Program-made: the position numbers and the translations under genes
Notes under the pieces: generated by a model
Seen by the model: the letters and a program-made list of their open reading frames with translations, nothing else
What the model was told of the DNA's origin: nothing
The model's database searches: none
DNA from: Lunularia cruciata
Lineage: Eukaryota > Streptophyta > Marchantiopsida > Lunulariales > Lunulariaceae
Length of the DNA stretch: 64,000 nt
Assembly (NCBI GenBank): GCA_948567375.1
Contig: OX419755.1
Coordinates: forward strand, 1,059,001-1,123,000
Reading direction: 5' to 3'
In this document: positions 3,030 through 39,257 of the stretch, piece after piece
How positions within the stretch are numbered: position 1 is the stretch's first letter
How the letters are laid out: each line of letters opens with the position of its first letter

Positions 3030-3044
3030 TACCCCCTCCCTCAA
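3030..3044 (-). other. Polypurine tract of A1
   Basis: The sense strand reads TTGAGGGAGGGGGTA and directly abuts the TGTGGTGCCC start of the 3' LTR. This is the expected position and composition for the plus-strand DNA primer of an LTR retrotransposon. Confidence 0.85.
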
Positions 3045-8129: not shown

Positions 8130-8156
8130 TTTATCAATAGACCAGGCAAATACATC

Positions 8157-9331: not shown

Positions 9332-9529
9332 GGCTTTAGCTTTGGCTTTTGAGAGGATCTTTTCCTCCTTGGCAGAAAGAATTGCCTTTGGGCGCAGTCT
9401 CTTTGCCTTTCAAGAAGACGACGAGGTCGTGCTCAGTTCTTTGAGATCACGCTTCTTCTTACAGGCACATGTCTCAACCTTCAAAATTTCAAGGTCTGTC
9501 CATTCTCCTTCTGAGGCTAGACTCCCTTC

Positions 9530-11535: not shown

Positions 11536-11554
11536 ATCCCCGGCAGCGGTGCCA
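11536..11554 (-). other. Primer-binding site of A1, tRNA-Asp type
   Basis: In sense it reads TGGCACCGCTGCCGGGGAT, starting 8 nt after the LTR end CACA. The plant tRNA-Asp(GUC) 3' end predicts TGGCGCCGTTGCCGGGGAT, as I recall it, giving 17 of 19 matches. It fixes the direction of the element and the inner LTR border. Confidence 0.85.
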
Positions 11555-16599: not shown

Positions 16600-17275
16600 T
16601 TCCTTGCGCTGCAATGGAATGAAGTGTAGGTTGTAAGGTCTGCACTTTGTGCCATTAGTATGGGACTTCAAAATTTTCTATCCAATGTCTCCAATTGCAC
16701 TAATCCATTGTTAAAGACCTCATATTTTTTGTAAGGGCCTAGCTACTTTTTTGCAAATTTGCTAGGGAATTGGTCCACATTGTCACAAAATTTTAAAACC
16801 AAATCTTTTTTGTAGAGGGGGATCTCTTTGGTTTTGGAGTCAAAGTAGGTTTTATCCCTAACTTGAATGGTATAATTGCTTATTGCATGAAGACAAGTTG
16901 GAACATGGTGAAGCCCATTGTGAGCTTGATCATAGTACAATAAGTCCATAACATGTCTACTTCTTTTCATCCTAATTGGTTAGGTTTAAACTCACAGTTT
17001 TCTTGAGGATTGTTAGCAAAATACCGTTGACTTATTTGACTTGACCATTTGCTTGTGGGAGATAAGGGGTAGAGATATCATGACAAATCCCATAAGTAAT
17101 TATGAGGTCCTGCACACCATTGTTGATGAAGTGTGGTGCTTTGTTTGTGACAATGGATAGTGGATAACCAAATGCAGAGATAATATTCTTAGGTATAAAT
17201 TGAATGGTGATCATGGTAGAGTTGTTGATAAAGGAGTCAACTTTGGCCCATTTTTTTAATGTAATTGGGAAAACC
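16600..17275 (-). pseudogene. pol: Old gypsy integrase fragment
   Basis: In sense, LVFPITLKKWAKVDSFINN, then NIISAFGYPLSIVTNKAPHFIN and PYLPQANGQVK, are the central integrase core. The second catalytic Asp of the usual S-D-x-G is changed to Asn (VTNKA). Downstream, KDLVLKFCDNVDQFPSKFAKK and VQLETLD are the C-terminal domain, ending near RPYNLHFI. Stops interrupt it between pieces. Its upstream end merges with the 3' LTR of A3 at CCAACAAGTA, which fits both sequences. It belongs to neither A1 nor D by wording and is the most decayed coding piece in the window. Confidence 0.75.
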
Positions 17276-18037
17276 AACAAGTATCACTTTGTAGTAATCA
17301 GGCAAATAAATTTTGTTCACATAGAGATACAAATCACAAATGTTCAAATACAAAGACAAATGGTAACAAGATTTTTCTTGGTTGTGTCTTTAATCTCTCT
17401 GGTAAAAACCATACCCAAAAGAGAGTAACAAGCACTAACTTGTAGTCTTGTCACAAATTAACACTTCATAATCACAACTTCATCAAATTCTATCCAAATA
17501 AATCTTGATTGTGATGATTTAGATCCTTCCAAAGATGGACACTTTATTGTAAAGCACCTTCACCTCAGAATTATGTTCCACTCCACCACTGAAGCCACAA
17601 TTTCCTTGATCAAAATTGCTTTGCATTAACTCAATGCTGTACTCACAAATGAAAAATACTACCAACACTACAATTCCTTTCAAATCTGTCAAGACATTGC
17701 TTTGATTGCACTTCACTCAAGATCAAACACACAGAATGAAGATAAAGGTTGCGGAATCCAACATCCAACAAACACATTGACTTGCACTTCAAATTTCTCT
17801 CAAGACTCACAAGCACACACATAGAATTGACACTTGGAATTAAGCTTAATTGACAAGCATTGAACTCAATACTTTGCTTTATCTATCTTCAAAAATTTGG
17901 AATACTAAACAACATAAGATTGCAAAGGCACCCTTTAAATAGTAGAGCAGTCAACAATTGCTAACAACTATACCATTTTACAACAAATATACCAACTTGC
18001 AGATCCAAAATGACAATGCACTTCTTCATATGTCTCT

Positions 18038-18329
18038 TCAAATCTCAAAACTATTGCTAATCCGATCCATGTCTACCTCTTCTTTGGCTTCCAAATCCGA
18101 TGATCCTCCAAGTATTTCTCCTTCTTTGGGTCTATCTTCAATTACCAAATCCTTCACCATTTCTAGTACTTCTTCATTATGAATTACAATTGAGGTCATG
18201 GGTAACCTTTCTAACTCTTTATCTCTTGATCCTCTTTTCTCTAATGTCTCAGAGGATAACTCCAAAGACACTTGCACTCCTACTTCTACTACTTTGGACA
18301 TCTTTCCCTCCTTCACACTACTCCAAAGT
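18038..18329 (-). pseudogene. LTR-borne coiled-coil gene, subfamily 2, 3' end (A3)
   Basis: This is the distal 3' part of the gene whose upstream part lies at 25873-27181. It reads SSVKEGKMSKVVEVGVQVSLE, the ETLEKRGSRDKELERLP repeat of the common tail, then an acidic end (KEEVDMD). The alignment with the tails of C4 and C7 is clear, although most codons differ. Function unknown. Confidence 0.75.
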
Positions 18330-19125
18330 TGTGACAACCTGGCAAATATCACTTTTGCAATAATCGGGTAAGTAAAGTTTGTTCTTGTAGAGATACGAGT
18401 CAGAAATGTCTAAATACGAAGTCAAAGTAACAATCTCAATTCTTCTTGGTTGTGTCTTTAATCTCTCAGGTAGAAACCACACCCAAAAGAGAGTAACAAG
18501 CAATGATTCTCAATCTTATCATGAATTCACACTCCTTAATCACAACTCCATCAATTCTTTCCAAACAATCTTAATTGTGATGATTCAGGCTCTCCCAAAA
18601 ATGGCACTTCACTGCAAAATGACTTCACCTCAGAATTGTGTTCCACTCCTCCATTGAAAGCACAACTTCCTCGATCAAAATTGCTTCACATCAACATTAC
18701 CCTGCACTCACAAATGCAGAATACTACCAACACTACAATTCCTCTCAGATCTGTCAAGGCATTGCTCCAATTGCAGTTCACTCAGGATCAAACACACAGA
18801 ATGAAGATCAAGGCTGCGGAATCCAACATCCAACAAGTAGACTAACTTGCACTTTGAATTTCTCCACACACTCACAAACATAGACACAAAGTTGATACTC
18901 GGAATCAAGCTTAAGCAATGAGCACTGCTTCACAGCACTTTGCTTTATCTATTCTCAAAATTATGAGCACTGAACAACATGATACTGCCAAATGCCACTC
19001 TTAAATAGTGAAGCAATCAACAATTATCTTCCTAGTGCACCTCTTCCTAATGACTCTACAAACCTGTAGATCTGAAATGACAATGCACCTCTTCATATCT
19101 ACCTATTCAAATCTCAAATCGGTTA

Positions 19126-21697
19126 CTAATCCAATCCAATGTCTACTTCTTCCTTGGCTTTCAAACCCAATCTCAAAGTAACTTTATTTCCTACTACTCT
19201 ATCCTCAGGTTTCATAATTCCTACATCTTCTACCAGATCTAACAATTCTCTTTCCTGATCTGACATTTCACTAGTGGGTAATCTATCTAACTCCTTATCT
19301 ACTGACTCACTCTTCTCTAATGTCTCCAATGGTAATTCCAAAGACATCTGCACTCCTACTTCATCTACTTTGGGTTTTGCTCTAACATCTTTCTGAATTT
19401 TATCTATCTCCAACTTTACTAAGTCTAATCTGATCATGATATTGTCTTTGACTTCCAATATTTTCCTATCTACACGAGTTCTGAGACTAATTAATAGAGC
19501 ATTCAAGTCTGTATCCTTTGCATGTCTCCTCCTTGTCTCTTGCACCAACAACTTCAACTCGTGCAGCCTCGTCTCTTCAATACGAACACTGGCCTCTGTA
19601 CTTAGCATTGCATTCATCCTGATTACGATCTCTTTCAATGGCTCCAATCTCATCTTCCTTTCATGCTCCCGATCTGCAAGCCAATCTTCCTTATACATTG
19701 CTAATTCTGCCTCGAACTCGGCTTTCACCGTTTCCTTCTCCTTCTCCTTCTGCACAATCTTCTCCTCTTGATTACGAAGTAACTCTCGTAATCTCTCTTC
19801 TTCCCTATATTTCACTATCAACTCCCGTTGCTACAATTGCTTCTTCTCTTCTACACTCTCTATCACTCTATCAAGCTCTTGTTCCTTCTTTGCTACCCTT
19901 GCCATAGCATGGATAATTTTGTAGTCTTGAATCAGCAAACTGCTGCTTCAAGATTTTGTACTCAACTACTTGTCTCTCCCTTGCTATGTCACTCTTCTTC
20001 ACAAGTTCCTCTTGATACCTCACTTCTCTCTTCAAATCCTCAATAGCTTGACTCTGCACTAATGCATCCACTTGCAGTACTTCCCTTTCCTCCTCACCTT
20101 GGATTATACTCTTCTTCAAGTCCGAGTTCTCTTCTTCCAATCTAATACTTGCAACACAGTCTTCACTTCCGGACACTTTGACTGCATCTCCCTCTTCTTG
20201 TGCTCTAGCTTCACTAACAATGGGCACATAATTTCTTGCAGGTGCTCCACTCCATCACTTGCAACTACTTCAACCTGTGGAGTGATCTCCTTCTTCACCT
20301 CTTCTTCTCTCAATACTCGCCTTCTTCTCTGCAGTTGTCGTATCAAAATAGATGCTTCACTTCCCGAACTAGCATTCTCATCTTCCCTTGCCTTGCTCAG
20401 ACCCGCTTCACACTTCACCTTGTGCCTCGACCAAACTCCCCTCTGAATTGTAATCTTCTTCTCCTCCGGCTCGGGTACCTCGTCCTCAAACTTCACATTA
20501 TTCTCTTCCTCGAGCTCCACCCAAACTTCTTCTTCTTATGTAGGTACCGATGTCATCTCCCCACCTTCATCACTATCACTACTTGTATCTCTAGTTTGTA
20601 GCGTGAGCTCAGGTTCTTCCTTGTGTTCCAAGTCTTCGGACTTGCACTCGGCTTTGCCTTTTGAGTCTTCCTCCAATGACGCAATCACCATCATACCTTT
20701 CCTCGGGTTTTCTCTCTTGGTCTTTTGGGGTCTTGTCTTCTCTATGTCTTTACCTTCTCCTTGTCGACTCCACTTCTTTGACTTTGGAGTACTTACTTCT
20801 ACCGCTGCACTCTTCCCCGTCTGTGCGTAGTACTCATCAGTGCTCCGGATTTGAAGAATATACTATTGCTCCTCCGTGTCGACTTCCCTTCTCAAGTCGA
20901 GATGAAAGTGAGACACCATTCTATTGCGCTCTGCTGCATTGAGCAAATTCAACCCAAGGTAGAAATGTGCTGCAAACGGCACAATATAGTGTGGAGGTGA
21001 CTTATCCCGCAAATTCCACACCATCTGCCTTGTTCTCCCATGGAAGCACCTCGCCCAGTTGATAGGTTCTCCTGGAAACATCTTATGGAAGAACACCACT
21101 TGGTGTTTCATCACATAAGTCGTTCTCTCCGGCTTCAGAATTGCCATGAGAGCACTCACGATCCCTCTCTTCATCGGATCTTTGTAACTCTCGACCTTAT
21201 ACCCATTCTTTGCACTCTTCAAAGAGAAGGCATCCCTCACTTCTTGGGTTTCTTTGGCTACCTCTCCCTTCCCCAAGAACATGGCACCCTACTCCACGCC
21301 TACCTCTCTTCCGAGTACCAATCTCCAATCCGACTGTGTCCAGCAAGCCGGATTTCCTCTCTTCCCCTCTTCCTCAAGGCCATCAAGACACTTACTCTTG
21401 ATTATCTTGGTCATGAACCCTAGAAAACTCACGTTCTAGTTCCATGCCAAGAATGTGATCCGAAGTCGGCTCAAGACTTTGATTCTTGCGATCACATCTA
21501 ACCTCCAAATCGCATGATTTCTCACTACAAATTCGGAGTTCTTCTTTCCTCCTCCCATCTTTCATGCTTCCTCATTGTCTCTTGGGTTAACTCTCTTGAA
21601 TTCTCCTCTACTCACTAGCGCGTCTTCAACTCTACTTCCCTTCCCACGATCTCATGCAGGATGACTCCTCAATGGCAAAGGAAGAATTGCTTGACAT
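19126..21697 (-). pseudogene. LTR-borne coiled-coil gene in C3, full length but broken
   Basis: The ATG at 21697 aligns with other copies, but a one-base change in the first codons shifts the frame (MSSN then a different reading). The N-terminal domain is intact over 139 codons (21282-20863): DAFSLKSAKNGYKVESYKD, FFHKMFPGEPINWARCFHG, VWNLRDKSPPHYIVPF. An acidic linker (EVEKTRPRK-like, S/E/D-rich) and a basic QRRRRV patch follow. The coiled coil ends with 231 open codons (19821-19126, KEKEKETVKAEFEAELAMYK) and the tail KEEVDIG. About 850 codons when complete. Function unknown; probably a structural or nucleic-acid-associated protein by composition, which is only inference. Confidence 0.8.
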
Positions 21698-22280
21698 TGC
21701 TTTCTCGTTAGCCCAATTTTTATAGAGTCGTGCCTTCTTTGTCTCTCTTCAATTTGAGTTTCTACCAAAAAATCACACCTCTTGCATGTGCCCATCACTA
21801 TCAAGTGTACTTCATGCATATGACCGCCGGTTTTTGAACGGTCCCTTCTTGAATTTCTCGCCCCGAAGAAAGGTTGTTACATTGTCTTTGCCTCTATGGT
21901 GCCCTCATTTTTTGTTTGTTTCAAAATAGAGAAGAAGAAGTGTATAGAGAAGTCAGATTGTGCCTGTATGGCCGAAGAAGGCAAAGAAAAGAGTCTTCGG
22001 GATGAAACCCAAAGTAAAGTGACTTTGGGTCATAAGGCAAAGTACTTGGAAATACCCTGTTAGCATACAACCCAAAGTAAGGAATCTTTGTATTGGGGGG
22101 AGCTCAACCCGAGGCAAAGACAGTCTAACAACCTTTCATTGGGATGAGACATTCAAGAAGGGACCGTTCAAAACCGGCGGCCCATACATGTGAAGTATGA
22201 TTGACAGTGACATGCGCATGCAAGAGGTGTGATTTCTTGGTAGAAACTCAAATTGAAGAGAGACAAAGAAAGTGCAACTC

Positions 22281-22288
22281 TATAAAAA
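22281..22288 (+). promoter_or_regulatory. TATA-like box ahead of the LTR-borne gene
   Basis: TATAAAAA lies 20 bp before the ATG at 22308 and about 390 bp into the LTR. The same box (TATAAAAAT on the sense strand) is kept upstream of the gene start in A1 (both LTRs), C3 (21717-21724) and C6 (30621-30629). A related TATAAAAT lies 72 bp before the ATG in C7. A promoter dedicated to the LTR gene is inferred. The short distance makes the transcript start uncertain. Confidence 0.55.
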
Positions 22289-22307
22289 GCGGGCTCACGA
22301 CAAAGCA

Positions 22308-24854
22308 ATGTCGAGCAATTTTCCTTCGCCGTTGAGAAGTCGTCCTGTAGGTGATCATGGGAAGGGAAATAGAGTTGAAGATGCGCTAGTATGTAAGGGA
22401 GAAGTCGAGAGAGTGAAACCAACAGACATTGAGAAAGCAAGAGAGATGGTAGGAGGAAAGAAGAACTCGGAATTTGCAGTGAGGAATCATGCAATTCGGA
22501 GACTAGACGTGATCGCAAGAATCAAAGTCTTGAGCCAACTTTGGATTACGTTCTTGGCATGGAATTAAAATGTCATTTTTCCAAGGTTCATGACTGAGAT
22601 TATCAAGAGCAAGTGTCTCGATGGCCCCAAGGAAGAGGGGAAGAGAGGAAATCCGGCTCATTGGACAGAGTCGGATTGGAGATTAGTGCTCGGGAGAGAA
22701 GCAAGCACGGAGCAGGGTGCCACATTTGGGTAAGGGAGAAGTAGCAAAAGAGACTCAAGAAGTGAGAGATGCTTTCTCTTTGAAGAGAACAAAGAATGGG
22801 TATAAGGTTGAGAGTTACAAGGATCCAGTGAAGAGAGGGATCATGAGTGCTCTCATGGCAATCTTGAGACCGGAGAGAACGACTTATGTGATGAAACACC
22901 AAACGGTGTTCTTCCATAAGCTGTTTGCAGGAGAACCAATCAACTGGGTGAGGTGCTTCCATGGAAGAACGAGACAAATGGTGTGGAATTTGCGGGATAA
23001 GTTGCCTCCACACTACATTGTGCCGTTTGCAGCACACTTCTAACTCGGGTTGAATTTGCTCAACTCGGCGGAGCAAAATTGAATGGTCTCTCACTTCCAT
23101 CCCGACTTGAGAAGAGAAGTCGATGTGGAGGAACAACAGTACATTCTTCAAATCCGGAGCGCGGATAAGTACTACGTGAAGACGGGGAAGAGCATAGAGA
23201 TAGAAGCAAGTACTCCAAAGTCAAAGAAGCAGAATCGGCAAGGAGAAGCCGAAGACAAGACAAGACCTCGGAAGACCAAGAGAGGAAACCCAAGGAGAAG
23301 CATGTTGGTGATTGCATCAGAAGACAAAGACTCAGAGGACGAAGCCGAGTGCAAGTCCAAAGACTCAAAACGTGAGGGAGAACCGGAGCTAATGTTGCAA
23401 AGTGGTGATATGAGTAGCGACAGTGATGAAGGTGGAGAGATGATGTCGGTACCAGCTGCTGCGGTAGAAGAAGAAGAAGTTTGGGTGGAGCTCGAGCCAG
23501 AAGATAATACGAAGTTGGAGGACAAGATACCTGAGCCCAAGTAGAAGAAGTCTGCGATTTAGAGGGGAGTTTGGGTCCAAGCAAGGCCAAGGAAGAAGCA
23601 AATGCTAGCTCGAGAAGTGAGGCATTGATTCCAATACAAAGACTACAGAGGAGGAAGCGAGTATCAGGTGAACAAGAAGTAAGGAAGGAGCTTGCTACAC
23701 AAGAGGAAGTAGTTGCGAGCAATGGAGTGGAGTACCTACGGGAGATCGTGTGTCCATTGTTGGTGAAATTGGAGCACAGGAAGAAGGAGATGCAATAGAC
23801 ATGTCTAGAAGTGAAGATTGTCTTGCAGGTGTTATCAAGATTAGACAAAGAGAGCTCGGAGTTGAAGAAGATTATAACCCGAGGTGAGGAGGGAAGGGAA
23901 GTATTGCGAGGGGAGGCAGTAGTGCAAGGTTGATTAATTGAAGACTTGAAGAGAGAACTGATGTATCAAGAGGAACTTGTTAAGAAGAGTGACATAGCGA
24001 GGGAAAGACAAGTAGGAGAGTATGAAATCTTGAAGCAGCAGTTTGCTGATTCTAGATTAGAAATTATCCAAGCTATGGCAAGGGTAGCAGCAAAGGAACA
24101 AGAGCTTGATAGAGTGATGGAGAGTGTAGAAGAGAAGAAGCAACTCTGGCAAAGGGAGTTGGCAGTAAGATATAAAGAAGAGGAGAGGTTACGAGAGTTA
24201 CTTCGTAATCTGGAGGAGGAGATTGAGTAGAAGGAGAAGGAGAAAGAAACAGTGAAAGCCAAGTTCAAAGCAAAATTGGCAATGTACAGAGAGGATTGGC
24301 TTGCAGATCGGGAACGTGAAAGGAAGATGAGATTGGACTCATTGAAGGAGATTGTCCTCGGAATGAACGCAATGCTAAGTACAGAGGCCAGCATTCAGAT
24401 TGAAGAGACAAGGCTGCACAAATTGAAGTTGTTGGTGCATGAGACGAGGAGGAGATAGGTGAAAGACACAGATTTGAATGCGCTATTGATAAGTCTCAAG
24501 ACTTGTGTAGATAGGAAAATACTAGAGGTAGAAGATAATATCGCAATTAGATTAGACTTAGTGAAATTAGAGATAGACAAACTTCAGAAAGACGTTAGAG
24601 CCAAACCCAAAGTCTATGAAGTAGGAGTGCAAATGTCTTCGGAGTTACCAGTGGAGACATTAGAGAAGAGTGGGTCAAGAGATAAAGAGTTAGATAGATT
24701 ACCCACTAGCGCAATTTCAGATCAGGAAAGAGAATTGCTAGATCTAATAGAAGATGTAGGAGATATGAAACCCAAGGATAGAGTAGTAGGAAGTAAAATG
24801 ACTTTGGGTTTGTGTTTGAAAGCCAAGGAAGGAGTAGACATCGGATCAGATTAG
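22308..24854 (+). pseudogene. LTR-borne coiled-coil gene, fullest copy (C4)
   Basis: Unknown function; about 849 codons from ATG to stop with a few in-frame stops and shifts. Residues ~1-330 appear globular: RNHAIRRLDVIARIKVLSQLW, an FLAWN motif, ALMAILRPERTTYVMKHQ, FFHKLFAGEPINWVRCFHG, VWNLRDKLPPHYIVPF. Then comes a Lys/Arg-rich tail (SKKQNRQGE) and an acidic Ser/Asp/Glu stretch (SSDSDEGGEM). A basic QRRKRVSGEQEV patch follows, then a long coiled coil (RQVGEYEILKQQFADSRLE, MESVEEKKQLWQREL, RLRELLRNLEEEIE). The repeated tail is ETLEKSGSRDKELDRLPTS. Breaks lie near 22565 (stop), 22730 (shift), 23545, 23800, 24230 and 24456. No zinc finger, no RT and no signal peptide. The layout is similar to a Gag-like or structural protein, but I cannot assign a family. 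Confidence 0.8.
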
Positions 24855-24972
24855 TAACCAATTTGAGATGTGAAGAGGCAGATATGAAGAGGTGCATTGT
24901 CATTTCAGATCTGTAGGTTTGTAGAGTTGTTAGGAAGAGGTACTTTAGGAAGATAACTGTTGATTGCTTCAC

Positions 24973-24980
24973 TATTTAAG
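24973..24980 (+). promoter_or_regulatory. Second TATA-like box, distal LTR promoter candidate
   Basis: TATTTAAG sits about 120 bp after the gene stop and about 670 bp before the LTR end. C0 (TATTTAA, 944-950) and C7 (TATTTAAA, 38580-38587) have the same box. It is the likely promoter of the genomic RNA, placing the gene upstream of the main transcription start, in U3. That assignment is inferred from spacing only. Confidence 0.5.
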
Positions 24981-25872
24981 AGTGGCATTTGCAGTATCAT
25001 GTTATTTAGTTCTCATAATTCTGAGAATAGATAAAGCAAAGTGATGTGAAGCAGTGCTCGTTGCTTGAGCTTGATTCTGAGTATCAGCTTTGTGTTTGTA
25101 TTTGTGAGTGTGTGGAGAATTTCAAAGTGCAAGTCAATGTGCTTGTTGGATGTTGGATTCCATAGCCTTGATCTTCATTCTGTGTGTTTGATCCTGAGTG
25201 AGGTGCAATCGAAGCAATGCCTTGATAGATCTGAGAGGAATTGTAGTGTTGGTAGTATTTTGCATTTGTGAGTGCAATGTGAGGTTGATGTGAAGCAATT
25301 TTGATCGAGGAAGTTGTGCGTTTAGTGGAAGGGTGAAACACAATTTTGAGGCAAAGTCGTTTTGCAGTGAAGTGCTGTTTTTGAGAGAGTCTGAATCATC
25401 ACAATCAAGGTTGTTTGGAAAGAATTGATGGATTTGTGATTATGGAGTGTTAATTTGTGACAAGACTACGAATCAGTGCTTGTTACTCTCTTTTGGGTGT
25501 GGTTTCTACCTAAGAGATTAAAGACACAACCAAGAAGAATTACATTGTTACTATTTGACTTCATATTTGACCAATTCTGACTTGTATCTTTGTAGGAACA
25601 AACTTTACTTACCCGATTACCGCAAAAGTGATATTTGCCGGGTTGTCACAGCCTTGGGTTGAGCTCCCCCCGATACAAAGATTTCTTACTTTGGGTTGTA
25701 TGCTGACAAGGCAAGTTCAAGTACTTTGCCTTATGACCCGAAGCCACGTTACCTTGGGTTTCATCTTGAAGATGCTTATCTTTGCCTTCTTCAACCATAC
25801 AGGCACAATCCGACTTCTCTATACACTTCTTCTTCTCCATTTCAAAAATAAACAAAAAATGTGGGTACCAGA

Positions 25873-27181
25873 AAAGGCTTTCTAACTCTGAGTTCACTAA
25901 ATCTAATCTGAGACTCACATTGTTTCCTACCTCAATTATCTTCCTATTTACTCTTTCTCTCAAACAAATTAGAAGAGTGTTCATATCTACATCTTTTGCT
26001 CTCCTCTTCTAAGTTTCTTGCACAAGCAATTTCAATTTGTGTAGTCTTGCTTCCTCCACCCTTCCTTTAGACTCCGTGCTCAACATTTCTTGCAATCTTC
26101 AAACAACTTCTCCTACTAATTGTGATGCATACCCTCAAGATTGTTCTACCTTCAACTCTTCTTGGTACATCTTCAACTTGTCTTTGTACTTAGCCACAAG
26201 CATCTTCTTCTCCTTTATATACGGAGAACTATGCATCTCAACACTTCTTACCAAGCCTTACAATCTCTCCTCCTCTTGGTGTTGGATTGCCAACTCCCTC
26301 TGCCATGCTTGATCTTTTCTTGCTGCACTCTTCTTTAGGCTCACTAACTCCTACTCCATCATAGCTGCCATTGCTTTCACATGAATACTTTCAATGCAAA
26401 CCTCATTGACCTCCTCTTTCATCTTTGCCAGCAACACCATCTGCTCCTTCAACTCTTTGGCTTGACTATGCATCTCTCTTCCCCTCTTCTTGAAACTCTT
26501 GCAAGTTCTCTAAAGTCTTCTTCAAGATTGCATCCACCCAAAGTTCCTCAACTTCTTCTTCTCTTCAGGTTACACTCTCCTTCAATCCCTTCACTTTGTC
26601 TAGCAGATATTTCACCACCTGCAACTCATTCTTCACCTTCATACGATCTTGCGTGATTACCTTCTTTTGCATACTCAATAGCTCCAACAATGGAGTTACA
26701 ATTTGCATTAAGTATTATACTCCCTCAAAGTCTTCTTCATCTTTGGCTTCATCTTTGTACTTTGCTTCTTCCACTTGAGCTTTCCCTTGAAGTCTCAATC
26801 TTTGTACCTTCAAAAATTTTACTTTTGAGCTTTCTTCTTCCTTACAAACTGAGCTCGGACCTGTAGGTTCACCCATTATTGAATTCTTGGCGCTGCCTTC
26901 CTTCCTGTCTTCCTTCTTTGGCTCTTCATCCATCTCCGCTATGGCCAATTCTAAACAAGGGTTATCTCCTCTCTCCATATGATCAATTGCTGCATGGAAT
27001 GCCTCATCTTCTTCCACTTCAGTCAATTATTGAAATTCCTCTTCACCATCACTCTCACTCCTGGATTCCTCATTCTTTAGTATGAGCTTGGCTTCTTCTG
27101 AGTCTCATCTTCTAGACTTTGTCTCTCCTTCAGACTTTGTCTCCAAAGTCTCCTCTTTCACTGTCTTCTTACCTTGCGGAT
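25873..27181 (-). pseudogene. LTR-borne coiled-coil gene, subfamily 2, central part (A3)
   Basis: In sense it begins inside the linker (QGKKTVKEETLETKSEGE-like text, recognisable against C7). It continues through an acidic block (MTEVEEDEAFHAAIDHMERG), a basic segment (LKVQRLRLQGKAQVEEAKYK) and a long coiled coil with several stops. It ends in MNTLLICLRERVNRKIIEVG, LRLDLVNSELE, where C3 is inserted. Wording is closest to C7 and clearly different from subfamily 1 (C3, C4, C6, A1), yet each segment has its counterpart in the same order. Confidence 0.75.
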
Positions 27182-27440
27182 TAAGGGTCTTTTGATCAAG
27201 AGTGGGTTACCAATTTTGGTTATTGGTTGCAACAAAATGTAGTTTAAGTTGAAGGGCACTCCTCCAATGATTGTAGTAATATTTGACAACATGCTCAAAG
27301 GCCATCTCCTGGTTTGATTTGCAAATTTCATAATTTAGGAAGTTGGTTCAAACATCATATATCCCAATTGATATGCAGTGTCTTGTGTCATGACATTCAC
27401 ACCCAACCCCAAATCAATGGGTATGGATGTGATCATGTAG
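27182..27440 (-). pseudogene. pol: A3 protease fragment
   Basis: In sense it reads MITSIPIDLGLGVNVM, the YQLGY and EPTS region, LSMLSNITTIIGGVPFKLNYI and then PLLI, where it is cut at the joint with the 3' LTR. It continues exactly from the gag-protease text that stops at 31024 (KVDTKILGY across the repaired site). The catalytic triplet is DLG as in A1. Everything downstream in pol is absent. Confidence 0.85.
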
Positions 27441-30400
27441 TGTGACAACCCGAAAAATATCACTTTTGCGGTAATCGGGTAAGTAAAGTTTGTTCCTGTA
27501 GAGATATGAGTCAAAATTAGTCAAATACAAAGTCAACGTAACAATTGCAGTTCTTCTTGGTTGCGTCTTTAATCTCTCAGGTAGAAACCACACCCAGAAG
27601 AGAGTAACAAGCATTGACTCACAGTCTTGTCACAAATTAGCACTCCTTAATCACAACTCCATCAATTCTTTCCAAACAATCTTGATTGTGATGATTCAGG
27701 CTCTCCCAAAAACAACATTTCACTGCAAAACAACTTTGCCTCAAAATTATGTTCTACCCCTCCATTGAAGGCACAACTTCCTCGATCAAAATTGCTTCAC
27801 ATCAACACTACGTTGCACTCACAAATGCAAAATACTACCAACACTACAATTCCTCTCAAATCTGTCAAGGCATTGCTCCAATTGCACTTCACTAAGGATC
27901 AAACACACAGAGTAAAGATCAAGGCTGCGGAATGCAACATCCAACAAGCACTCTGACTTGAACTTCAAAATTCTTCACACTCACAAACACAATTGCTAAG
28001 TTGATACTCGGAATCAAGCTTAAGCGACAAGCATTGCTTCACAACACTTTGCTTTATCTATTCTCAGAAATAATGAGCACTGAACAACATGATATTGCAA
28101 ATGCCACTCTTAAATAGTGAAGCAATTGACAGTTATCTTCCTAATGTACCTCTTCCTAATGACTCTACAAACCTGCAAATCCAAAATGACATCGCACCTC
28201 TTCATATCTACCTATTCAAATCTCAAATTGGTTACTAATCCGATTTGATGTCTACTTCTTCCTCGGCTTTCAAACCCAAACCCAAAGTAACTATACTTCC
28301 TACTACTCTGTCCTTGGGTTTCACAACTCCTACATCTTCTACCAGATCTAAGAGTTCTCTTTCCTGATCTGACATTTCACTAGTGGGTAATCTATCTAAC
28401 TCCTTATTTGCTGACCCACTCTTCTCTAATGTCTCTCTTGGTAACTCTGAAGATATCTGCACTCCTACTTCATCTACTTCGGGTTTGGCTCTAATGTCTT
28501 TCCAAAGTTTATCTATCTTTATCTTCACTAGATCTAATCTAGTTGTGATATTGTCTTTGACTTCCAATATCTTCCTATCTACCCAAGTTTTGAGACTAAT
28601 TAACAGAGCATTCAAGTCTATATCCTTCGCATGTCTCCTCCTTGTCTCCTGCACCAACAATTTCAACTCGTGCAGCCTCGTCTCTTCAATACGAACACTA
28701 GCCTCTGTACTCAGCATCGCATTCATCTTGATTACTATCTCCTTCAATGGCTCCAATCTCATCTTCCTTTCACGCTCCCAATCTGCAAGCCAATCTTCCT
28801 TGTACATTGCCAACTTTGTCTCAAACTCGGTTTTCACAATTTCCTTCTCCTTCTCCTTCTGCACAATCTTCTCCTCTTGATTACGAAGTAACTCTTGTAA
28901 TCTCTCTTCTTCCCTATATCTCACTGTCAACTCCCTTTGCCATAGTGCTTCTTCTCTTCTACACTCTCCATCACTCTTGTTCCTTCTCTGCTACCCTCAC
29001 CATTGCATGGATAATTTCTAGTCTTGAATCAGCAAACTGCTGCTTCAACATTTTGTACTCTGCTACTTGTCTCTCCCTTGCTATGTCACTCTTCTTCACA
29101 AGTTCTTCTCGATACCTCGCTTCTCTCTTCAAGTTCTCAATAACTTGACATTGCACTACTACATCCCCTTGCAGTACTTCCCTTTCCTCCTCGCCTCGGA
29201 TTATACTCCTCTTCAACTCCGAGTTCTCTTCTTCTAGTCTTGCCAAAACCTGCAACACAATCTTCACCTCTGGACATGTCGACTCCATCTCTTTCTTCTT
29301 GTGCTCTAGCTTCACTAACAATGGGCACACAATTTCTCATAGCTACTCCACTCCATCACTTGCACCTACTTCCACCTGCGGACTGATCTCCTTCTTTACC
29401 TCTTCTTCACCCGATACTCGCCTTCTTCGCTGCAGTCGTCGTATCAGAATAGACGCTTCACTTCCCGAGCTAGCATTCTCCTCTTCCCTTGCCTTGCTTG
29501 GACCCACTTCACACTTCGCCTTGTGTCTTGACCAAACTCCCCTCTGAATTGTAATCTTCTTCTCCTCCGGCTTGGGTACCTTGCCCTCCAACTTTGCGGT
29601 TATTTTCTTCCTTGAGCTCCGCCCAAACTTCTTCTTCTTTTGCAGCAAGTACCGACGTCATCTCCCCACCTTCATCACTATCGCTACTGGTATCCCCTCT
29701 TTGTAGCGTGAGCTCCGGTTCCTCCTTGTGTTCCGAGTCTTTGGACTTGCACTCGGCTTTGCCTTCCGAGTCTCCCTCTAATGATGCAATCACCACTATG
29801 CCTTTCCTTGGGTTTCCTCTCCTGGTCTTCCAAGGTCTTGTCTTCTCTACGTCTTTGCCTTCTCCTTGTTGACTCCGCTTCTTTGACTATGGAGTACTCA
29901 CTTCAACCTCTGCACTCTTGCCCATCTGTGTGTAGTACTCATCAGTGCTTTGGATTTGAAGAATACATTGTTGCTTCTCCACGTAGACTTCTCTTCTCAA
30001 GTCGGGATGAAAGTGAGACACCATTCTGCTGTGCTCTGCCAAATTGAGCAAATTCAACTTGAGGTAGAAATGTGCTACAAATGGCACAATGTAGTGTGGA
30101 GGCGACTTATCCCACAAATTCCACACCATCTACCTTGTCCTCCCATGGAAGCGCCTCGCCTAGTTGATAGTTCTCCTGCAAATATCTTATGGAAGAACAC
30201 CGCTTGGTGTTCCATCACATAAGTTGTTCTCTTTGGCTTCAGGATTGCCATGAGAGCACTCATGATCCCTCTCTTCATTGGATCTTTGTAACTCTTGACC
30301 TTATACCCAATTCTTTGTTCTCTTCAAAGAGAAGGCATCCCTCACTTCTTGGGTTTCTTTGGCTACCTCTCCCTTCCCCAACCTTTGATTCTTACAATCA

Positions 30401-31023
30401 CATCTAACCTCCAAATTGCATGATTTCTCATTGTGAATTTGGAGTTCTTCTTTCCTCCTCCCATCTTTCCTGCTTCCTCACTGTCTTTTGGTTTAACTCT
30501 CTCGAAGTCTCCTCTACACACTAGTGCATCTTCAACTCTACTTCCCTTCCCACGATCTCCTGCAGGATGACTTCTCAACGGCAAAGGAAAATTGCTCAAC
30601 ATTGCTTTGTTGTTAGCCCAATTTTTATAGAGTTGCGCCTTCTTTGTCTCTCTTCAATTTGAGTTTCTACCAAGAAATCACACCTCTTGCATGCACCTAT
30701 CACTGTCAAGTGTACTTCATGCATATGGCCGCTGGTTTTTGAACGGTCCTTTCTTGAATTTCTCACCCCAAAGAAGGGTTGTTACACTGTCTTCGCCTCA
30801 GGTTGAGCTCCCTTCGATACAAAGACTTCTTACTTTGGGTTGTATGCTGACACGGCAAGTCTGAGTACTTCACCTTATGACCCAAAGCCACGTTACCTTG
30901 GGTTTCATCCCAAAGACTCTTTTCTTTGCCTTCTTTGGCCATACAGGTGCAATCCGACTTCTCATTCTGCAATACACTTCTTCTTCTCCATTTCAAAAAA
31001 AAACAAAAAATGTGGGTATCACA
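27441..31023 (-). mobile_element. Solo LTR of family A (C6), with perfect TSD
   Basis: On the plus strand it runs from TGTGACAACC to GGTATCACA, 3583 bp, flanked on both sides by TGTAG (27436-27440 and 31024-31028). Removing it and one TSD restores the A3 protease frame (KILGYMITSIPIDLG). This is the cleanest proof in the window that the coiled-coil gene lies inside the LTR unit. No primer-binding site or internal coding region is present. Confidence 0.95.
28235..30602 (-). pseudogene. LTR-borne coiled-coil gene in C6
   Basis: The ATG at 30602 (MLSNFPLPLRS) is 19 bp after the conserved TATAAAAAT box. The frame is open for 79 codons through RNHAIWRLDVIVRIK. A deletion then removes about 100 codons and joins to GKGEVAKE. 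The rest of the globular domain is readable (30278-29887: FFHKIFAGEL, PPHYIVPF). The linker, QRRRRVSGEEEVKKE and coiled coil follow, with frameshifts near 29340 and 28940. The last 231 codons (28930-28235) are open and end in AEEEVDIKSD. Subfamily 1. Confidence 0.8.
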
Positions 31024-33636
31024 TGTAGCCTAAAATCTTTGTGTCCACTTTGGGAGATCCCAAATCTTCTTCTTCAATATGATAAATTATGGGCAAGTAT
31101 TTTTTGGTCATCGCCCTTACTTTCTTGAGGGCTTCTTGTACAACTTGTTGTCCTCTCACAATAGCTGAAATGTGACATTAGCAATTATAGATGCCAAATT
31201 GACCACAATATTGTATTGAGGGACTCTTCCCAACTTCATCTTCTTCACCTTTGTCATTGGGTCCAAAGTCTCTCCCCATTCAAATTAGACTTTGGAGTGC
31301 TTCAAGACGGTGATGGAGTACTGGCGGTCTTAACCCAAAGTTCTTTGGATTTTCCCACCTTAGCTTGGATTAGATCCTTCACTTTGGATCTAATATCCAC
31401 CAAAAACAAAGGAGGCTTTGTCTTCTTATTCTTCTCCAAACCCATTTCCCGAGTTCTTTGTATTGCTTCATTGATTTCTTTTTGCAAAGCTTTAGCTTTA
31501 GCTTTTGCTAGAATCTTTTCCTCCTTGGCAAAAAGAATAGCTTTTGGGCATAATCTCTTTGCCTTTTGTGAAGACAAAGAAGTAGTACTTGCTTCTTTGG
31601 GGTCACGCTTCTTCTTACCCAAGCGTGTCTCAACCATCAAAATTTTGAGGTTTGGCTATTCTCCTTTAGAGGCCGGACTTCCTTCTTGAGGTCTCTCCTC
31701 CTCAAGTGTGATTCAATTTACATTTGTATATCCTTTTGACTATAGCGCAACATGCTCAGCTAGGATCTGTACATATTTTACAAGCAGCTTTGGGTTTGGT
31801 GGTTGTAGGCACTGATTTCTAGTATGACCCTATCCTTTACAATTCTTGCACAATGGAACATACCCAATTTGTCGTCTTGGCTCCGGTTAGTTTGGAGACC
31901 AATATCCCATCAAGCCACAATTATAACAAGCACTTGGTGCAACATTTTGAGGCCTATTTTGGCTGCCCATCAGTGGTCCTTGGTGGAGGATTGTTGTTGT
32001 ACTCCCTTTGTCCATACCTCAGACCTTGATATGATGTGCACGCCTGAGGTTGTACCTCTTGGGTTTGCTACACAAACTCATCTTCCCCACTTTGGTCCCA
32101 ACCTGGAACCCAATCAATTTGTTGCACTAGAAATGCATTGCAGGTCAAACACTCCATATTAGCATGGCCAGATTTATCACAAGCACTGCACCATACATTT
32201 GGTCTGCCAAATGATGGAGGCTTCCTTTGGTCCTTAGCCCCAATCATTTGGATCTTGAAATCCGCAAACTCTTTAATAAGAGTCTCCAGCTTTTGGTCCG
32301 CCTTATTTACACTCTTTGCTGGCAGGGTTATTGGCTTCTTTCCTCTGTACCTTTGAATTCTCCTAGGCTTTGAATCTTCTTTGGATTCCAAAGAAGAATT
32401 TGAAGATGTGGAGGATTCCTTTGAAGAAAGGGATGTACTGCAAGAAGCTCTCCTTCTGGGCTTCTTGCCTTTCTTCTCCAGATTTCTTTGGTTGTTGGAC
32501 GAGTGAGAGTGACCCACCTCATATCGGGTGACATGTTTGAGAACCTTGTCCAAGGAAGTTATATTCCTCTCCCTGGCAAAGATACAAATCTTTGGTGAGA
32601 GTCCGCCAAGAAACCAAGTAATGGCTTGGGCATCGGAGTAACCCACCACATCAGATTGCTTCAAGACACAATTCAAAAGGGCCATGAACAGCTCAAAGTA
32701 CTCTCTCAACTTTTCCTTCTTCCCTCTATCCAAATCATTGAGTGCCACAAAGACCCTTGTATTGCAATCAACTTCTTGGAATCATTCCAGGAAGCCATTT
32801 TGCAAGTCTGCCCAATTGGCTGATGTGAACCCCTTCTAGGTTACATGGGTATACCAGCTCAAGGCTTTCTTTCAAAGCAGACTTGGAAAAATTCATAGAG
32901 TTTGCAGAGTAATGTTCCTTGTTGGCAAAAGAAATGACTTCAAATTCTTTGATAAATTCATCAAGATCTTTGTCTTGTTCTGCCCCTTATACCTGTAATA
33001 GGCATGTCATGTGGCAGATAACAAAGTCATTGTTTGACTCGAGTGAATTGGCTATGGTAAAGTTGAACTTGATGGACCCAAGAAATTGGCTGGTATTGAC
33101 ATCGTGTTGACACCCTAGGGGTTCCAATTAGTCAAGTTCAAAGTGGGGTCTTCATCGACAGATTCTTCTTCTTTGATGGTGTCGACTTTGATTGGAAACA
33201 AAGTAAGAGGTTCAACACTTTGAGAGTGTTTGTGAAAATTCCCTCAAGCCAATCAGGGAATTGTTTGTAAGCCAATGTTGGCACTCTTTTTCTATTAATA
33301 TTTGTGCTATCTTTTCATGAATGAATTTCTTTATAGAACAACTTCCTTTATAGCTTTAGGGGAAGTTGGTGTACAGGGTCACAACAAGTATGTTTGCCTG
33401 CTCAAGTCTTTCTTCTTCTTGGAAGATGGAGATGAGAAGTAGCCTTACCACCCACCTTTGTATTTCTTTTGTTTGAGTTCTTGTAGGGCTTCTTGAACTT
33501 TGTGAAGGAGCTTAAAATCCAACGGCTCCTGTTCAGTTTTGTCAAAAGTTAATTGGATCTTCTGGCATTCTTCTTCTTCACGGTGCAACGTTTGTCTTAG
33601 CACTCTCTCTTCCCATTGTTCTCTCAATGCAGACAT
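31024..33636 (-). pseudogene. gag: A3 gag and start of protease
   Basis: It starts at MSALREQWEERVLRQTL, homologous to the A1 start. The capsid-like part (ALNDLDRGKKEKLREYFELF, FLGGLSPKICIFARERNI) is open from 32748 to 32068 (226 codons). It contains the first zinc knuckle CSACDKSGHANMEC. Stops follow. The second and third knuckles are only partly legible, as Cys codons have changed. A K/E-rich linker (31640-31302) leads to EDLGSPKVDTKIL, where C6 interrupts the protease. Compared with A1 it is of similar length and order. Confidence 0.8.
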
Positions 33637-33697
33637 TCATATTGGTTCCAACCCAATTTAAAGTTTGACTTTGTATTCTTCTACTTCCAAGATTTCT

Positions 33698-33716
33698 ATC
33701 CCCGGCAGCGATGCCA
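33698..33716 (-). other. Primer-binding site of A3, tRNA-Asp type
   Basis: In sense it reads TGGCATCGCTGCCGGGGAT, 7 nt after the LTR end. It matches the plant tRNA-Asp complement at 16 of 19 positions and the A1 site at 18 of 19. Confidence 0.8.
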
Positions 33717-33723
33717 AATATCA

Positions 33724-33823
33724 TGTGACAACCCAACAAGTATCACTTTTGTGATAATCAGGCAAATAAAGTTTGTTCCCATAGAGATACAAATCAGAAA
33801 TATTCAAATACAAAGACAAATGG
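33724..33823 (-). repeat. 5' LTR remnant of A3 (about 100 bp)
   Basis: On the plus strand it starts TGTGACAACCCAACAAG and follows the family A LTR terminus as far as GACAAATGG. There the text changes abruptly to TGTCATGCCATTTG. The cut is attributed to insertion of element D. The rest of this LTR would lie beyond the right end of the window. Confidence 0.75.
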
Positions 33824-35491: not shown

Positions 35492-38400
35492 TGTGGTATC
35501 CACATTTTTTGTTTTCTTTTCTTTTGTTAGATTTTTTGAAGAAGAAGTTAGTAAGAAAGCCAAATTACAAAGGAAAGGATGCATGAGTATATCTATGGAG
35601 TAAACTCAAAGAAGTTGACTTTGAGTCAAAAAGCAAATACTTAGATGGGGAGGTACAAAGAGACAAGTCCAAAGAAGTACTTATCTTTGGACCAAGAAGC
35701 AAATGCCAATACAAAGATGGTCTAACAACCTTTCGACATGGCAAGAAAGTACACTGCAAGAAACGGTGGAGGTAGGAGAAGCATGTCATGACAGTGACAA
35801 GAAAGCAACATGCAAAAGAAGGGGGAGTTGATTTTGAAATTGATTGAAGAATGACTACACTTTGAGGTAATATAAAATTGTGACTACGTAGGGGGAAATC
35901 AAATATATCAAGGTGATATCTTGTTCCTCTAAGTAGTCCTCATGCAGTAATGTGTGTCAAGAAGCCGACTGAGAGTGAAATTTTCCAAAGTCCAGAAGGG
36001 CTTAGAGTGTCAAGTCCAGGAGAGGGAATAGTTTTTCAGTGCCAAAGAACAAGATCTCAAATCATGGCAAAGAAGGTCAAGAACATGCTTTCAGTAAGGA
36101 GCTTTGCAATTTGGAGGTTAGATGTTGTAGCAAGGATCAAAGTCTTGAATAGACTTTGTATTACATTCTTAGCCTAGAATTAGAATTTTAGTTTCCCAAG
36201 AGTCATAGCAAAGATAATTGCCAATAATTGTGAGGAAGGCCCTGAAGTTGAGGGGAAGAGTGGAAATCCGGCTTGATGGACTGAGTTGGATTGGAGGTTA
36301 GTATTGAGGAAGGAAGCAAGAGAAGCAACTAGAATCACTTTCTATCGGAAGTGTGATACTGCAAAGGAGACCGTGGAAATTTGCAATTCATTCTTTGCTC
36401 TGTGTATGACTAATGGCTACAAGGTGGAGTTCTATCAGGACCCGATTAAACAAAGCATTATCAAAGTGATAATGGCCATGTTCAAACCTGAACAAATGAC
36501 CTATGTGAATATGCAGCAGATTGTCTTCTTTCACTAGTTGTTTGCAAGAGTGAAGGTGAACTAGGCAAAGTGCTTCCACCAGTGGATGGGGCAAATGGTT
36601 GTCAATTGGAGAACTAATTCACCTCCACATTATTTTGCACCGTTCATAGCACACTTCTACTTTGGGTTAAATTTACTGACCGTGGAGGAGAGGTGATGTA
36701 TGGTGTCACACTTCCATCTTAACCTACAACAAGAGGCGGATGAAGAAGAGCGGCACTTCATGACGCACGTACGAGCCAGTGATGATCACTTCAGAAAAAT
36801 GGGACAGAAAGAGAGGGAAGAAGTAAGAAGTCCAAAGACAAAGAAGCGTACTAAACCCAAAGAGAAAGAGTTGCCTCAAGAACAACGGAAGACCAAAGAC
36901 TTACTCTACGAGGCGAGAAGGCGGTGAGAGAAGAAACTTCAGAAACCGAGTCTGAAGGGGAGATAGAGTCTAGAGGAGGAAACTCAAAAGAAGCGGAGCT
37001 CACGTTACAAAGTGGGGAATCTGCAAGTGAGAGTGATGGAGAAGAAGAAGTTTAGCAATTGGGTGAAGTAGAAGAGGATGAAGAATTTCATGTGGTGATT
37101 GATCGTATGGAAGGAAGTGCTTATCCCTATGTAGCCCTGGTCATGGATGAGATAAGGACCAAGCAAAAGATGAAAGACCTTGCCATGCCAAGTTCAATGG
37201 GTAAGGAAGAAGGAAGCTCGGATGCAATATCATTGAAGGTACAAAGATCAAGACTTTGGGAGAAGGAGCCGGCAGAAGAGAAGAAGTACAAAGATGGGGC
37301 CAAAGACAAAGAGAATCTTGATGGAGTATCATATTTAATGCAGGTTGTTACTCCATTGTTGGAGCTGTTGAAAGCACAACAGAAGGTAATCCTGCAAGAC
37401 CAAAGGAAGGTGAAGAATGAGTTGCAGATAGTGAAGTCTTTGTTAGATGAAGTAAAGGGATTGCAAGAACGTGTAGCTCAAAGACAAGAAGAAGTTGAGG
37501 AGCTTTGGGTGGATATAGTCTTGAAGAGAAAGACCTTCGAGAAGTTACAAGTTAGTTTCAAGTCAAGGGAAAGAGAGATGCAACTTCAAGCCAAAGTATT
37601 GAAGGAGCAGATGATGTCGCTAAAGAAGATGAAGGAGGAAGTCAATGAAGCAAGCATCAAAAGTATTCATGTGAAGGCAATGGCAACAATGATGGAGCAG
37701 GAGTTAGAAGGCTGGAAGAAGAGTGTAGTAGGGAAGGATCAAGCATGGCAGAGAGAGTTGTCAATCCAACATCAAGAAGAAGAACAATTGAGAGACTTAC
37801 TACGAAGTGTTGAGTTACATAGTTCTCAGTTACATAGTTCTCAATATGTGGAGGAGAAGAAGATGCTTGCTGCGGAGTACAAAGACAAGTTGAGGATGTA
37901 CCGGGAAGAGTTAAAGGCAAAGCAATCTTGAGGGTATACGTCAAAATCCGTAGGAGAAGTTGTTGGAAGACTGCAAGCAATTTTGAGCATGGAGGCTGAA
38001 GGAAGATTGGAAGAAGCAAGGCTACATAAATTAAAGTTGCTTGTGCATAAAACTCAAAAGAGAAGAGCAAAGGATGTCAATATGAACACTCTCCTGATTT
38101 GTTTAAAGGAGAGAGTAGATAAAAAGATGTTGGAAGTAGGAGACAATGTCAATCTCAAATTAGATTTAGTGAATTCATAGTTAGGAAGAATTAGGAGTAG
38201 TGTGCAAGAAGATAAGAAATCTGAAGTTGTAGAAGTAGGAGTGTAGTTGTCTTTGGATCAGTTATTTAACACTTTAGAGAAGCCTGGGTTGGAAGAAAAA
38301 GAGTTAGATCAGGTACCCACTACTGTAATTGTAGTTCAGAGTGAAGAAGTAGTAGAAATAGTGAAGGATTTGGTAGTTGTAGATATACCTAAAGAAGGAG

Positions 38401-39257
38401 AGGTGATAGGAAGATCATCGGGTTTGGAAGCCAAAGTCGAAGTAGACATTGGATCGGAATAGTTACAGTTTTGAGATTTGGAGAGGCAAATATGAAGAGG
38501 TGCATTGTCAATTTGGATCTATAGGTAGGATGAGTTATTAGGAAATGATATAATTGTTAGTGCCTATCGATTGCTTCACTATTTAAAGGGAGCATTCACA
38601 ATGTTATGTGTTCAGTATTCCAAATTTCTGAAGATAGATAAAGTGAAGTGCTGATTTCAGTGCTCGTCGCTTGAGCTTGATTCCGAGTATCAACATTGTG
38701 TTTGTGTTTGTGAGTGTTGGGAGAATTTCAAAGTGCAAATCAGTGTGCTTATTGGATGTTGGATTCCACAACCTTGATCTTCATTCTATGCGTTTGATCC
38801 AGAGTGAAATGCAATTGGAGCAATGCCTTGACAAACTTGAGAAGAATTGTAGTGTTGGTAGTTTTTTGTAGTAGTGAGTGCAGTATAGTATTGATGTGAA
38901 GCAATTTGAATTGAGAAACTTGTGCCTTTAGTGGAGGAGTAGAACACAATTTGGAGGCAAAGTCATTTTGTAGTGAAGTGCCGTATTCGGGAGAATCTGA
39001 ATCATCACAATCAAGATTTTTTTGGATAGAATTTGCTATGTTGTGATTATGAGTGTGAGATTTGTGACAAGTTGTCAAGATTGAGTGCTTGTTACTCTCT
39101 TCTGGGTGTGGTTTCTACCTAAGAGATTAAAGACACACCAAGAAGAACTACTTGTTATTGTGTGACTTTGTATTTGACGAATTCTCACCAGTATTTCTGC
39201 AAGAACAAACTTTACTTACCTGATTACCGCAAAAGTGATATTTGCTAAGTTGTCACA
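35492..39257 (+). mobile_element. Solo LTR of family A (C7), subfamily 2, 3.77 kb
   Basis: It starts TGTGGTATCCACATTTTTTG and ends AAGTTGTCACA. Flanks AGGAG (35487-35491) and AGGAA (39258-39262) form a TSD with 4 of 5 bases matching. Removing the LTR and one TSD restores the gag frame of D. No primer-binding site follows. Most of its length is the second subfamily of the LTR gene. Confidence 0.9.
35950..38462 (+). pseudogene. LTR-borne coiled-coil gene, subfamily 2 (C7)
   Basis: About 838 codons from MCVKKPTESEIF to the stop. Block order equals that of C4: SFAIWRLDVVARIKVLNRL, FLA, SFFALCMTNGYKVEFYQD, IVFFH, PPHYFAPFIAHFYFGLNLL, HVRASDDHFRKMGQ, a Lys-rich tail, an acidic stretch and a 290-codon open coiled coil (37059-37931). 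It ends SGLEAKVEVDIGSE. Stops lie near 36176, 36275, 36536, 36694, 36926, 37055, 37930, 38180 and 38246. The very different first 50 residues and low identity elsewhere, with conserved layout, suggest an old split of the two subfamilies. Confidence 0.8.

Follow-up and report, generated by a model that had tools for sequence, protein, structure and literature searches.

Background

The nef gene of human immunodeficiency virus (HIV) and the accessory genes of foamy viruses reach into the unique 3' (U3) region of the 3' long terminal repeat (LTR) with only part of each gene inside the LTR. As a rule, retroviral LTRs do not code for protein, as the sections of PMC4667437 available to us state; in the same sections, endogenous betaretroviral copies of sag, the gene known from mouse mammary tumour virus (MMTV), are for the most part in solo LTRs (490 of 527 shortlisted contigs), with a one-ratio dN/dS (nonsynonymous over synonymous divergence) of 0.289 across decaying copies. 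In plant retrotransposons, additional open reading frames (ORFs) belong to the internal region; most are found between pol and the 3' LTR, several are antisense, and a review credits Grande with a nuclear protein and PvRetro13 with an SMC domain (PMC7264820, in the part available to us). For Retand, the available part of PMC11963269 gives LTRs of 315-1,194 bp in that study's clusters and antisense TRP28 ORFs. Here, we analyze a 64,000-nt stretch of the liverwort Lunularia cruciata (contig OX419755.1, positions 1,059,001 to 1,123,000 of assembly GCA_948567375.1; hereafter the window, numbered from 1), which carries a Ty3/gypsy retrotransposon family with a large gene inside its LTRs.

Our analysis indicates, with a probability that we put at roughly 0.8, that each full-length LTR of this family holds a complete accessory gene, ~800 codons long and in the same sense as gag-pol, and we propose that it is a U3-encoded helper acting in trans. 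The gene is conserved and unusual, and its place is probably U3. Its protein was under purifying selection during the spread of the family, about as strict as that on gag, and the gene decays after insertion.

Results

The repeated units are LTRs

Copies of a 3.6-kb unit (c6) were mapped in the window by blastn and named c1a, c1b and c2 to c8. Those in c2, c4, c5, c6 and c7 are whole LTRs; c1a, c1b and c3 together with c8 represent three partial ones. They are listed here with the target-site duplications (TSDs):

1..1622, plus strand: c1a, LTR of another copy, running off the window, with the C-terminal part of the gene
1623..3029, minus strand: c1b, visible part of the 3' LTR of element A1, same deletion as c2
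11563..14416, minus strand: c2, 5' LTR of A1, gene with an internal deletion of ~848 bp
17271..18329, minus strand: c3, 3' part of an older c7-like LTR, site of the c4 insertion
18330..21894, minus strand: c4, larger part; TSD AAAGT (18325-18329) / AAAGG (25873-25877)
21895..25650, plus strand: c5, complete LTR nested in c4; TSD GCCTC (21890-21894) / GCCTT (25651-25655)
25651..25872, minus strand: c4, 5' remainder beyond the nested c5
25878..27192, minus strand: c8, middle part (gene linker and coil region) of the same older LTR as c3
27436..27440: left copy of the c6 TSD, TGTAG
27441..31023, minus strand (sense): c6, solo LTR of 3,583 bp with TG...CA ends and TSD, inserted exactly in element A3
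31024..31028: right copy of the c6 TSD, TGTAG
33724-33819: 96-bp LTR remnant
35492..39257, plus strand: c7, complete LTR of a diverged subfamily; TSD AGGAG (35487-35491) / AGGAA (39258-39262)

Full-length LTRs measure 3.6-3.8 kb (3,583-3,766 bp in c6, c5 and c7), and the A1 LTR c2 measures 2,854 bp. The stretch 17271-27192 is a three-deep nest, with c5 in c4 and c4 in an older c7-subfamily LTR (c3 and c8), all of them with the gene or parts of it. Beside c7, at 34900-35400, a short stretch (GAGATTGACTCTGAGTTGGAGTTTGACACAAGCGTT...) is seen by eye to be duplicated.

Elements A1 and A3 have the following parts:

3030..3042, minus strand: A1 polypurine tract GAGGGAGGGGGTA (sense), adjoining the 3' LTR
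5564..10447, minus strand: A1 internal genes, namely gag (zf-CCHC), protease-like, reverse transcriptase-like, RNase H and integrase zinc-binding
11536..11554, minus strand: A1 primer-binding-like site, ~8 nt from the LTR end
31029..33723, minus strand: A3 internal part (gag side), host of c6, with a primer-binding-like site beside 33724

The primer-binding-like site of A1 is probably tRNA-Asp-like. A single A1 frame at 6191-7288 matches Pfam RT_RNaseH (residues 34-136) and Integrase_H2C2 (245-295), and RNase H before integrase is the Ty3/gypsy order. The reverse transcriptase-like (7761-8156) and protease-like stretches of A1 were identified by eye; in Pfam, the former has no match and the latter only one below threshold (E 0.14).

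The ends of c6 read TGTGACAACCC at 27441 and GGGTATCACA at 31023, that is, TG...CA, and they are flanked by a perfect 5-bp TSD, TGTAG/TGTAG. A1 8602-8855 aligns to 27184-27437, and from 8864 on, A1 aligns to 31034 on. The shift in offset between A1 and A3 is 3,588, which equals 3,583 + 5, so c6 with its TSD occupies exactly one site in A3. The region hit is protease-like, by eye and by a weak Pfam match below the cut-off (Asp_protease_2, E 0.14). The TSDs of c4, c5 and c7 match at 4 of 5 bases; by our own arithmetic, the chance of at least 4/5 at positions fixed by homology is ~1/64, and that of 5/5 ~1/1024. The TSD of c7 is weaker, its left end having been chosen among four candidates for beginning like the other LTRs (TGTGGTATCCACATTTTTTG), and the outermost bases of c4 are mutated, with the right end set by alignment.

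In both A1 (at 11563) and A3 (at 33724), an LTR end adjoins the primer-binding-like site, and the sense polypurine tract adjoins the end of the A1 3' LTR at 3029. The two A1 LTRs lack the same ~848 bp, as expected of copies made from one template. The TSDs are seen at the solo LTRs; that of A1 itself cannot be seen, as c1a cuts the A1 3' LTR at 1623 and leaves only 1623-3029 visible. These units are LTRs of a Ty3/gypsy element. The original prediction, a model's reading of the letters, had described c6 as a TG...CA unit with a perfect TGTAG duplication that contains the gene, and its ends and TSD are as described, with an exact fit into the A3 protease-like region. It had also given 4/5-base TSDs for three further units, which we take to be c4, c5 and c7 and which we verified, the left end of c7 being less certain, and had placed the gene in the A1 LTRs beside the primer-binding site and the polypurine tract, where it does lie, though with the ~848-bp deletion.

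A gene of about 800 codons inside the LTR

The gene or the expected part of it is present in all five whole LTRs and in all three partial ones (with the deletion in c2 and c1b). The earlier claim that it lies inside the LTR, is doubled with the LTR and is kept in solo LTRs is supported. The most informative copies and the motifs around the c6 gene are as follows:

19126..21558, minus strand: LTR gene in c4, Met to stop, ~810 codons, among the most complete copies
22446..24854, plus strand: LTR gene in c5
28110..28116, minus strand: TATTTAA past the c6 gene, at LTR position 2908; putative genomic RNA promoter
28235..30464, minus strand: LTR gene in c6, Met 30464 to stop 28235, with stops and frameshifts
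30623..30629, minus strand: TATAAAA before the gene in c6, LTR position 395, 165 bp 5' of Met
36064..38462, plus strand: LTR gene in c7, with a stop-free stretch of 291 aa at 37056-37928

In c4, c5 and c7, the gene has ~800 codons, runs in sense with gag-pol and lies wholly inside the LTR. The start ATG aligns across c4, c5, c6, c2, c1b and c7, and there is one common stop. In-frame stops number 5 in c6, 6 in c4 (849 scored codons), 9 in c5, 10 in c7, 9 in c8, 5 in c2 and 2 in c1b, and are absent only in the short c1a (199 scored codons) and c3 (78 codons); the 5-10 stops in c6, c4, c5 and c7 compare with 42-83 in the two shifted frames. The c6 copy is decayed, having frameshifts besides its five stops, and its longest stop-free stretch has 251 aa (28238-28990).

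The protein consists of an N-terminal region of ~250 residues, a linker that is charged by eye and a coil rich in Glu, Lys and Leu. Glu and Lys make up 26-27% of two coil pieces and 15% of the c5 N-terminal piece. A heptad periodicity of 3.5 residues is clear in c7, where 0 of 500 shuffles reach the observed value, and modest in c6 (16/500); the N-terminal piece does not have it (383/500). The N-terminal region is 51% identical between subfamilies (c4 vs c7).

When 13 gene pieces were compared with the internal DNA of A1, A3 and two other elements of the window, B and C, and with one LTR of B, nothing fell below E 0.1, and a link to gag that was sought in A1 internal DNA gave a best match of E 0.22. 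A gene of the internal region was considered and rejected, since in the window the 13 pieces match LTR copies only.

Searches for homologues were negative. In the protein collection, 245, 3,100 and at least 7,996 candidates yielded none at E <= 0.01, with apparently few or no plant genomes covered. A sequence search of PDB gave only two weak matches, to ribosomal S8 (E 0.36-0.40), and a profile search gave nothing at E 1 or lower. The viral contig collection held no relative, and in the genome contig collection, none of 179 pattern matches was confirmed, again with apparently few or no plant genomes covered. These collections seem to hold few or no plant genomes, so the absence of relatives there says little. 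Against Pfam, five gene pieces matched no family at the cut-off (best PilJ_Pilin, E 0.0068; Med9, 0.015; PcRGLX_3rd, 0.039); with eight further pieces, PRS7_OB (E 0.093, 1/8 members) was read as chance, and it is not sag. Pfam holds a sag model, and a relationship to sag was not detected with these 5 + 8 pieces; no direct alignment with sag was made.

Selection on the gene between elements

To compare the copies, 875 codon columns were phased from stop-free stretches, dropping columns with <70% agreement of the phase votes; the set includes some codons 5' of Met (43 scored from column 421 on in c4-c5). At least 50 codons were available for 33 of the 36 pairs. The differences concentrate at third positions: by codon position they are [110, 89, 178] for c6-c5 (777 codons), [106, 95, 203] for c4-c5 and [67, 50, 127] for c6-c2. 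For the A1 LTR pair (c2 vs c1b), an internal control whose differences arose only after insertion, gene conversion aside, they are [18, 20, 15] in 330 codons, with no third-position excess, and the later noncoding part of the LTR has no clear position pattern ([2, 4, 5] in 244 triplets).

The pattern holds for changes that separate groups of copies. Fixed differences between {c6,c4} and {c5,c2} are [19, 15, 55] in 492 codons, and three other groupings give [19,13,39], [13,13,30] and [20,10,38]. The internal branch {c6,c4}|{c5,c2} carries 57 synonymous and 31 nonsynonymous changes (omega ~0.14; Fisher P 4e-5 vs the A1 pair), {c6,c4}|{c2,c1b} carries 41 and 29 (omega 0.19, P 0.0015), and {c6,c4}|{c5,c1b} carries 32 and 23 (omega 0.19).

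Over the 33 pairs, dN/dS ranges from 0.14 to 0.78. The upper values belong to c3 pairs (0.52-0.78, 70-78 codons) and to the A1 pair (0.62); the remaining pairs span 0.14-0.37, and two have no value, dS being saturated. Between elements (c6, c4, c5, c2, c1a, c1b), the range is 0.14-0.32, and among c6, c4, c5 and c2 it is 0.18-0.32. The A1 pair itself, at 0.62-0.67 (bootstrap 0.36-1.29 around 0.62), has 14 synonymous and 36 nonsynonymous differences. By region, c4-c5 gives 0.16 in the N-terminal part, 0.31 in the linker, 0.16 in the coil, 0.36 in the tail and 0.48 before Met; for c4-c7 the corresponding values are 0.16, 0.45, 0.18, 0.68 and 0.53. As a yardstick, gag of A1 vs A3 gives 0.16 (bootstrap 0.09-0.24, 181 codons). 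During the spread of the family, purifying selection therefore acted on the protein with about the same strictness as on gag, and the gene decays once inserted, the signal lying between elements and not between the two LTRs of A1.

Promoter-like motifs and probable placement in U3

A TATA box stands at a fixed place before the gene start. TATAAAA occurs once per LTR in all six LTRs that hold that part, at a distance to Met of 165 bp in c6, c5, c2 and c1b, 166 in c4 and 193 in c7; c7 has it although its 5' region aligns only in patches. Past the stop, TATTTAA shares one alignment column in c6, c4, c5 and c7, and read off the alignment also in c1a and c3; c7 has two further TATTTAA within the gene. 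Farther on, GATAAA stands at alignment column 3255 in c6, c4, c5, c2 and c7.

The gene lies within the LTR, and its proposed U3 position rests on the TATTTAA after the gene. Divergence between c6 and c7 is 0.31-0.57 per 200-column bin through the gene and 0.15-0.22 after this second TATA-like box, a step that suggests an exchange of the repeat and unique 5' (R-U5) part by strand transfer between subfamilies, or constraint there. The 5' region of the LTR, like the gene, is far more diverged between the two subfamilies than the part past the box. For that part, seven quartets give a mixed picture of topologies, two of them with counts of 9:3:8 and 27:13:8. Together, motif and step place the gene probably in U3.

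Other repeats and elements in the window

Between the A1 integrase and 3' LTR, tandem arrays of 90-, 46- and ~81-bp units occupy 3405-5170, and the long stop-free frames there are these repeats. Element B (41810-55572) is gypsy-type, with internal genes on the minus strand; its 4-kb LTRs (41810-45823 and 51560-55572) are 95% identical and filled with higher-order tandem repeats of 146, 254 and 400 bp. The LTR at 51560-55572 has no sense stretch of at least 80 codons, so a long LTR alone does not produce one. In element C (57177-63685), also gypsy-type, the LTRs are ~0.69 kb long and 92% identical, and the plus strand encodes pol.

Discussion

We propose the following mechanism. The first box would be the gene's own U3 promoter, making an mRNA that ends at the LTR polyadenylation signal, and the second TATA-like box would drive the genomic RNA. 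The protein, presumably a globular N-terminal domain followed by a long coiled coil, may self-associate and help replication or regulation of the element in trans. Doubling of U3 at each reverse transcription would give every element two copies of the gene, and recombination between LTRs would leave one copy per solo LTR, where it decays.

A bolder extension, of which we are doubtful, is that the LTR forms a self-sufficient cassette of promoter, gene and polyadenylation signal, so that solo LTRs and elements together make up a dispersed trans-acting pool feeding gene-less elements such as A1, and LTR-LTR recombination preserves or even enriches the helper gene. The original prediction had let the gene travel and persist without gag or pol. 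Our results do not support this: the solo LTRs are leftovers of recombination, the long copies are all broken, selection is seen between elements only and not in the A1 pair, and A1 moved with a deleted gene.

Several observations weigh against the accessory-gene reading. Among the long copies in the window, none has an intact gene. A1 carried the deletion in its gene already at its last jump, so the protein is not required in cis for each transposition. The comparison with the A1 pair is modest: Fisher tests of 11 other pairs against it give P 0.0021-0.041, uncorrected and from pairs that share sequences, and the A1 pair itself rests on only 53 differences. A noncoding control gave a pseudo-omega of 0.39-0.75 in 7 pairs, so the ratio is no proof by itself and values of 0.3-0.4 alone are not trustworthy; the argument for selection is carried by the codon-position pattern and the A1 pair. 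The LTR does not evolve as a single unit, since synonymous divergence is higher than divergence in the LTR section that follows the gene (for c6-c5, dS 0.48 vs 0.11 raw). As to the U3 placement, the TATTTAA past the gene is absent from c2, and the divergence step could equally mean constraint on R-U5.

Of the other explanations, the one that survives best, improbable as we judge it, is that a host gene was captured once into the LTR and has been carried as a passenger of no use to the element. That A1 moved with a deleted gene would fit, as would the lack of a relative in Pfam, PDB and the protein collection, plant genomes being outside the search. A passenger would drift, however, whereas the internal branch has an omega of 0.14-0.19 and two regions of the protein have 0.16-0.18, like gag, and the gene is shared by two subfamilies that retain 51% identity in the N-terminal region. 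Less probable still is selection on the gene within solo LTRs, either as a domesticated host gene or as a cassette that spreads alone. A single LTR does contain a promoter-like box, the gene and the later LTR part, and four solo LTRs with TSDs occur in 64 kb, but the long copies are broken by in-frame stops (c6 5, c4 6, c5 9, c7 10, c8 9, c2 5) and the A1 pair has no third-position excess after insertion.

We give hardly any credence to a spurious gene, in which purine-rich, low-complexity DNA reads as a coiled coil by chance: two coil pieces are indeed 26-27% Glu and Lys, but third positions are in excess, stops are few in one frame only, the N-terminal region (its c5 piece has 15% Glu and Lys) keeps 51% identity between subfamilies and the 4-kb LTR examined in element B lacks a comparable frame, so a chance reading frame was rejected. 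It is just as improbable that the units are independent elements, such as a DNA transposon with a 5-bp TSD, flanking A1 by chance; four of them do stand alone without gag or pol, but their ends adjoin the primer-binding-like site in A1 and A3 and the A1 polypurine tract, and the two A1 flanking copies share one large deletion that fits a single template, for which reasons a non-LTR element was rejected.

A search of the open-access literature, by titles and the starts of abstracts, found no plant LTR-encoded protein among the matches listed; the matching passages of PMC1560396 and PMC4016481 were unrelated. What distinguishes the present gene is that it was kept about as strongly as gag while wholly inside a Ty3/gypsy LTR. 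Were this general, it could account in part for very long LTRs, would endow solo LTRs with a coding potential and would provide a coding marker for LTR evolution, and it would become testable whether retrotransposons use the debris of their own recombination to keep helper genes in trans.

In position, the closest parallel is MMTV sag, an accessory gene in the LTR (mostly in U3) that is doubled with the LTR and, in the available sections of PMC4667437, found mostly in solo LTRs. The original prediction had drawn this comparison, and it holds for position. The present gene differs from sag in belonging to a Ty3/gypsy element and not a retrovirus, in having ~800 codons wholly in the LTR and in encoding a coiled-coil protein. 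The prediction's other reference point, that plant extra ORFs are internal and mostly between pol and the 3' LTR, agrees with the review as far as it was available (PMC7264820). With these additional ORFs (Grande gene23, RIRE2, Retand ORF4, PvRetro13 ORF2, and the env-like genes of Athila and Bagy2), as the available sources describe them, the family shares the possession of an extra conserved gene; unlike them, it has that gene inside both LTRs and in sense. A1 resembles Retand in its tandem-repeat arrays (3405-5170), which lie past pol and before the 3' LTR. Unlike Retand, as far as the available part of PMC11963269 describes it, the LTRs here are ~3.6 kb long (3,583-3,766 bp in c6, c5 and c7; 2,854 bp in A1), outside the length range of that study's clusters, and they carry the gene.

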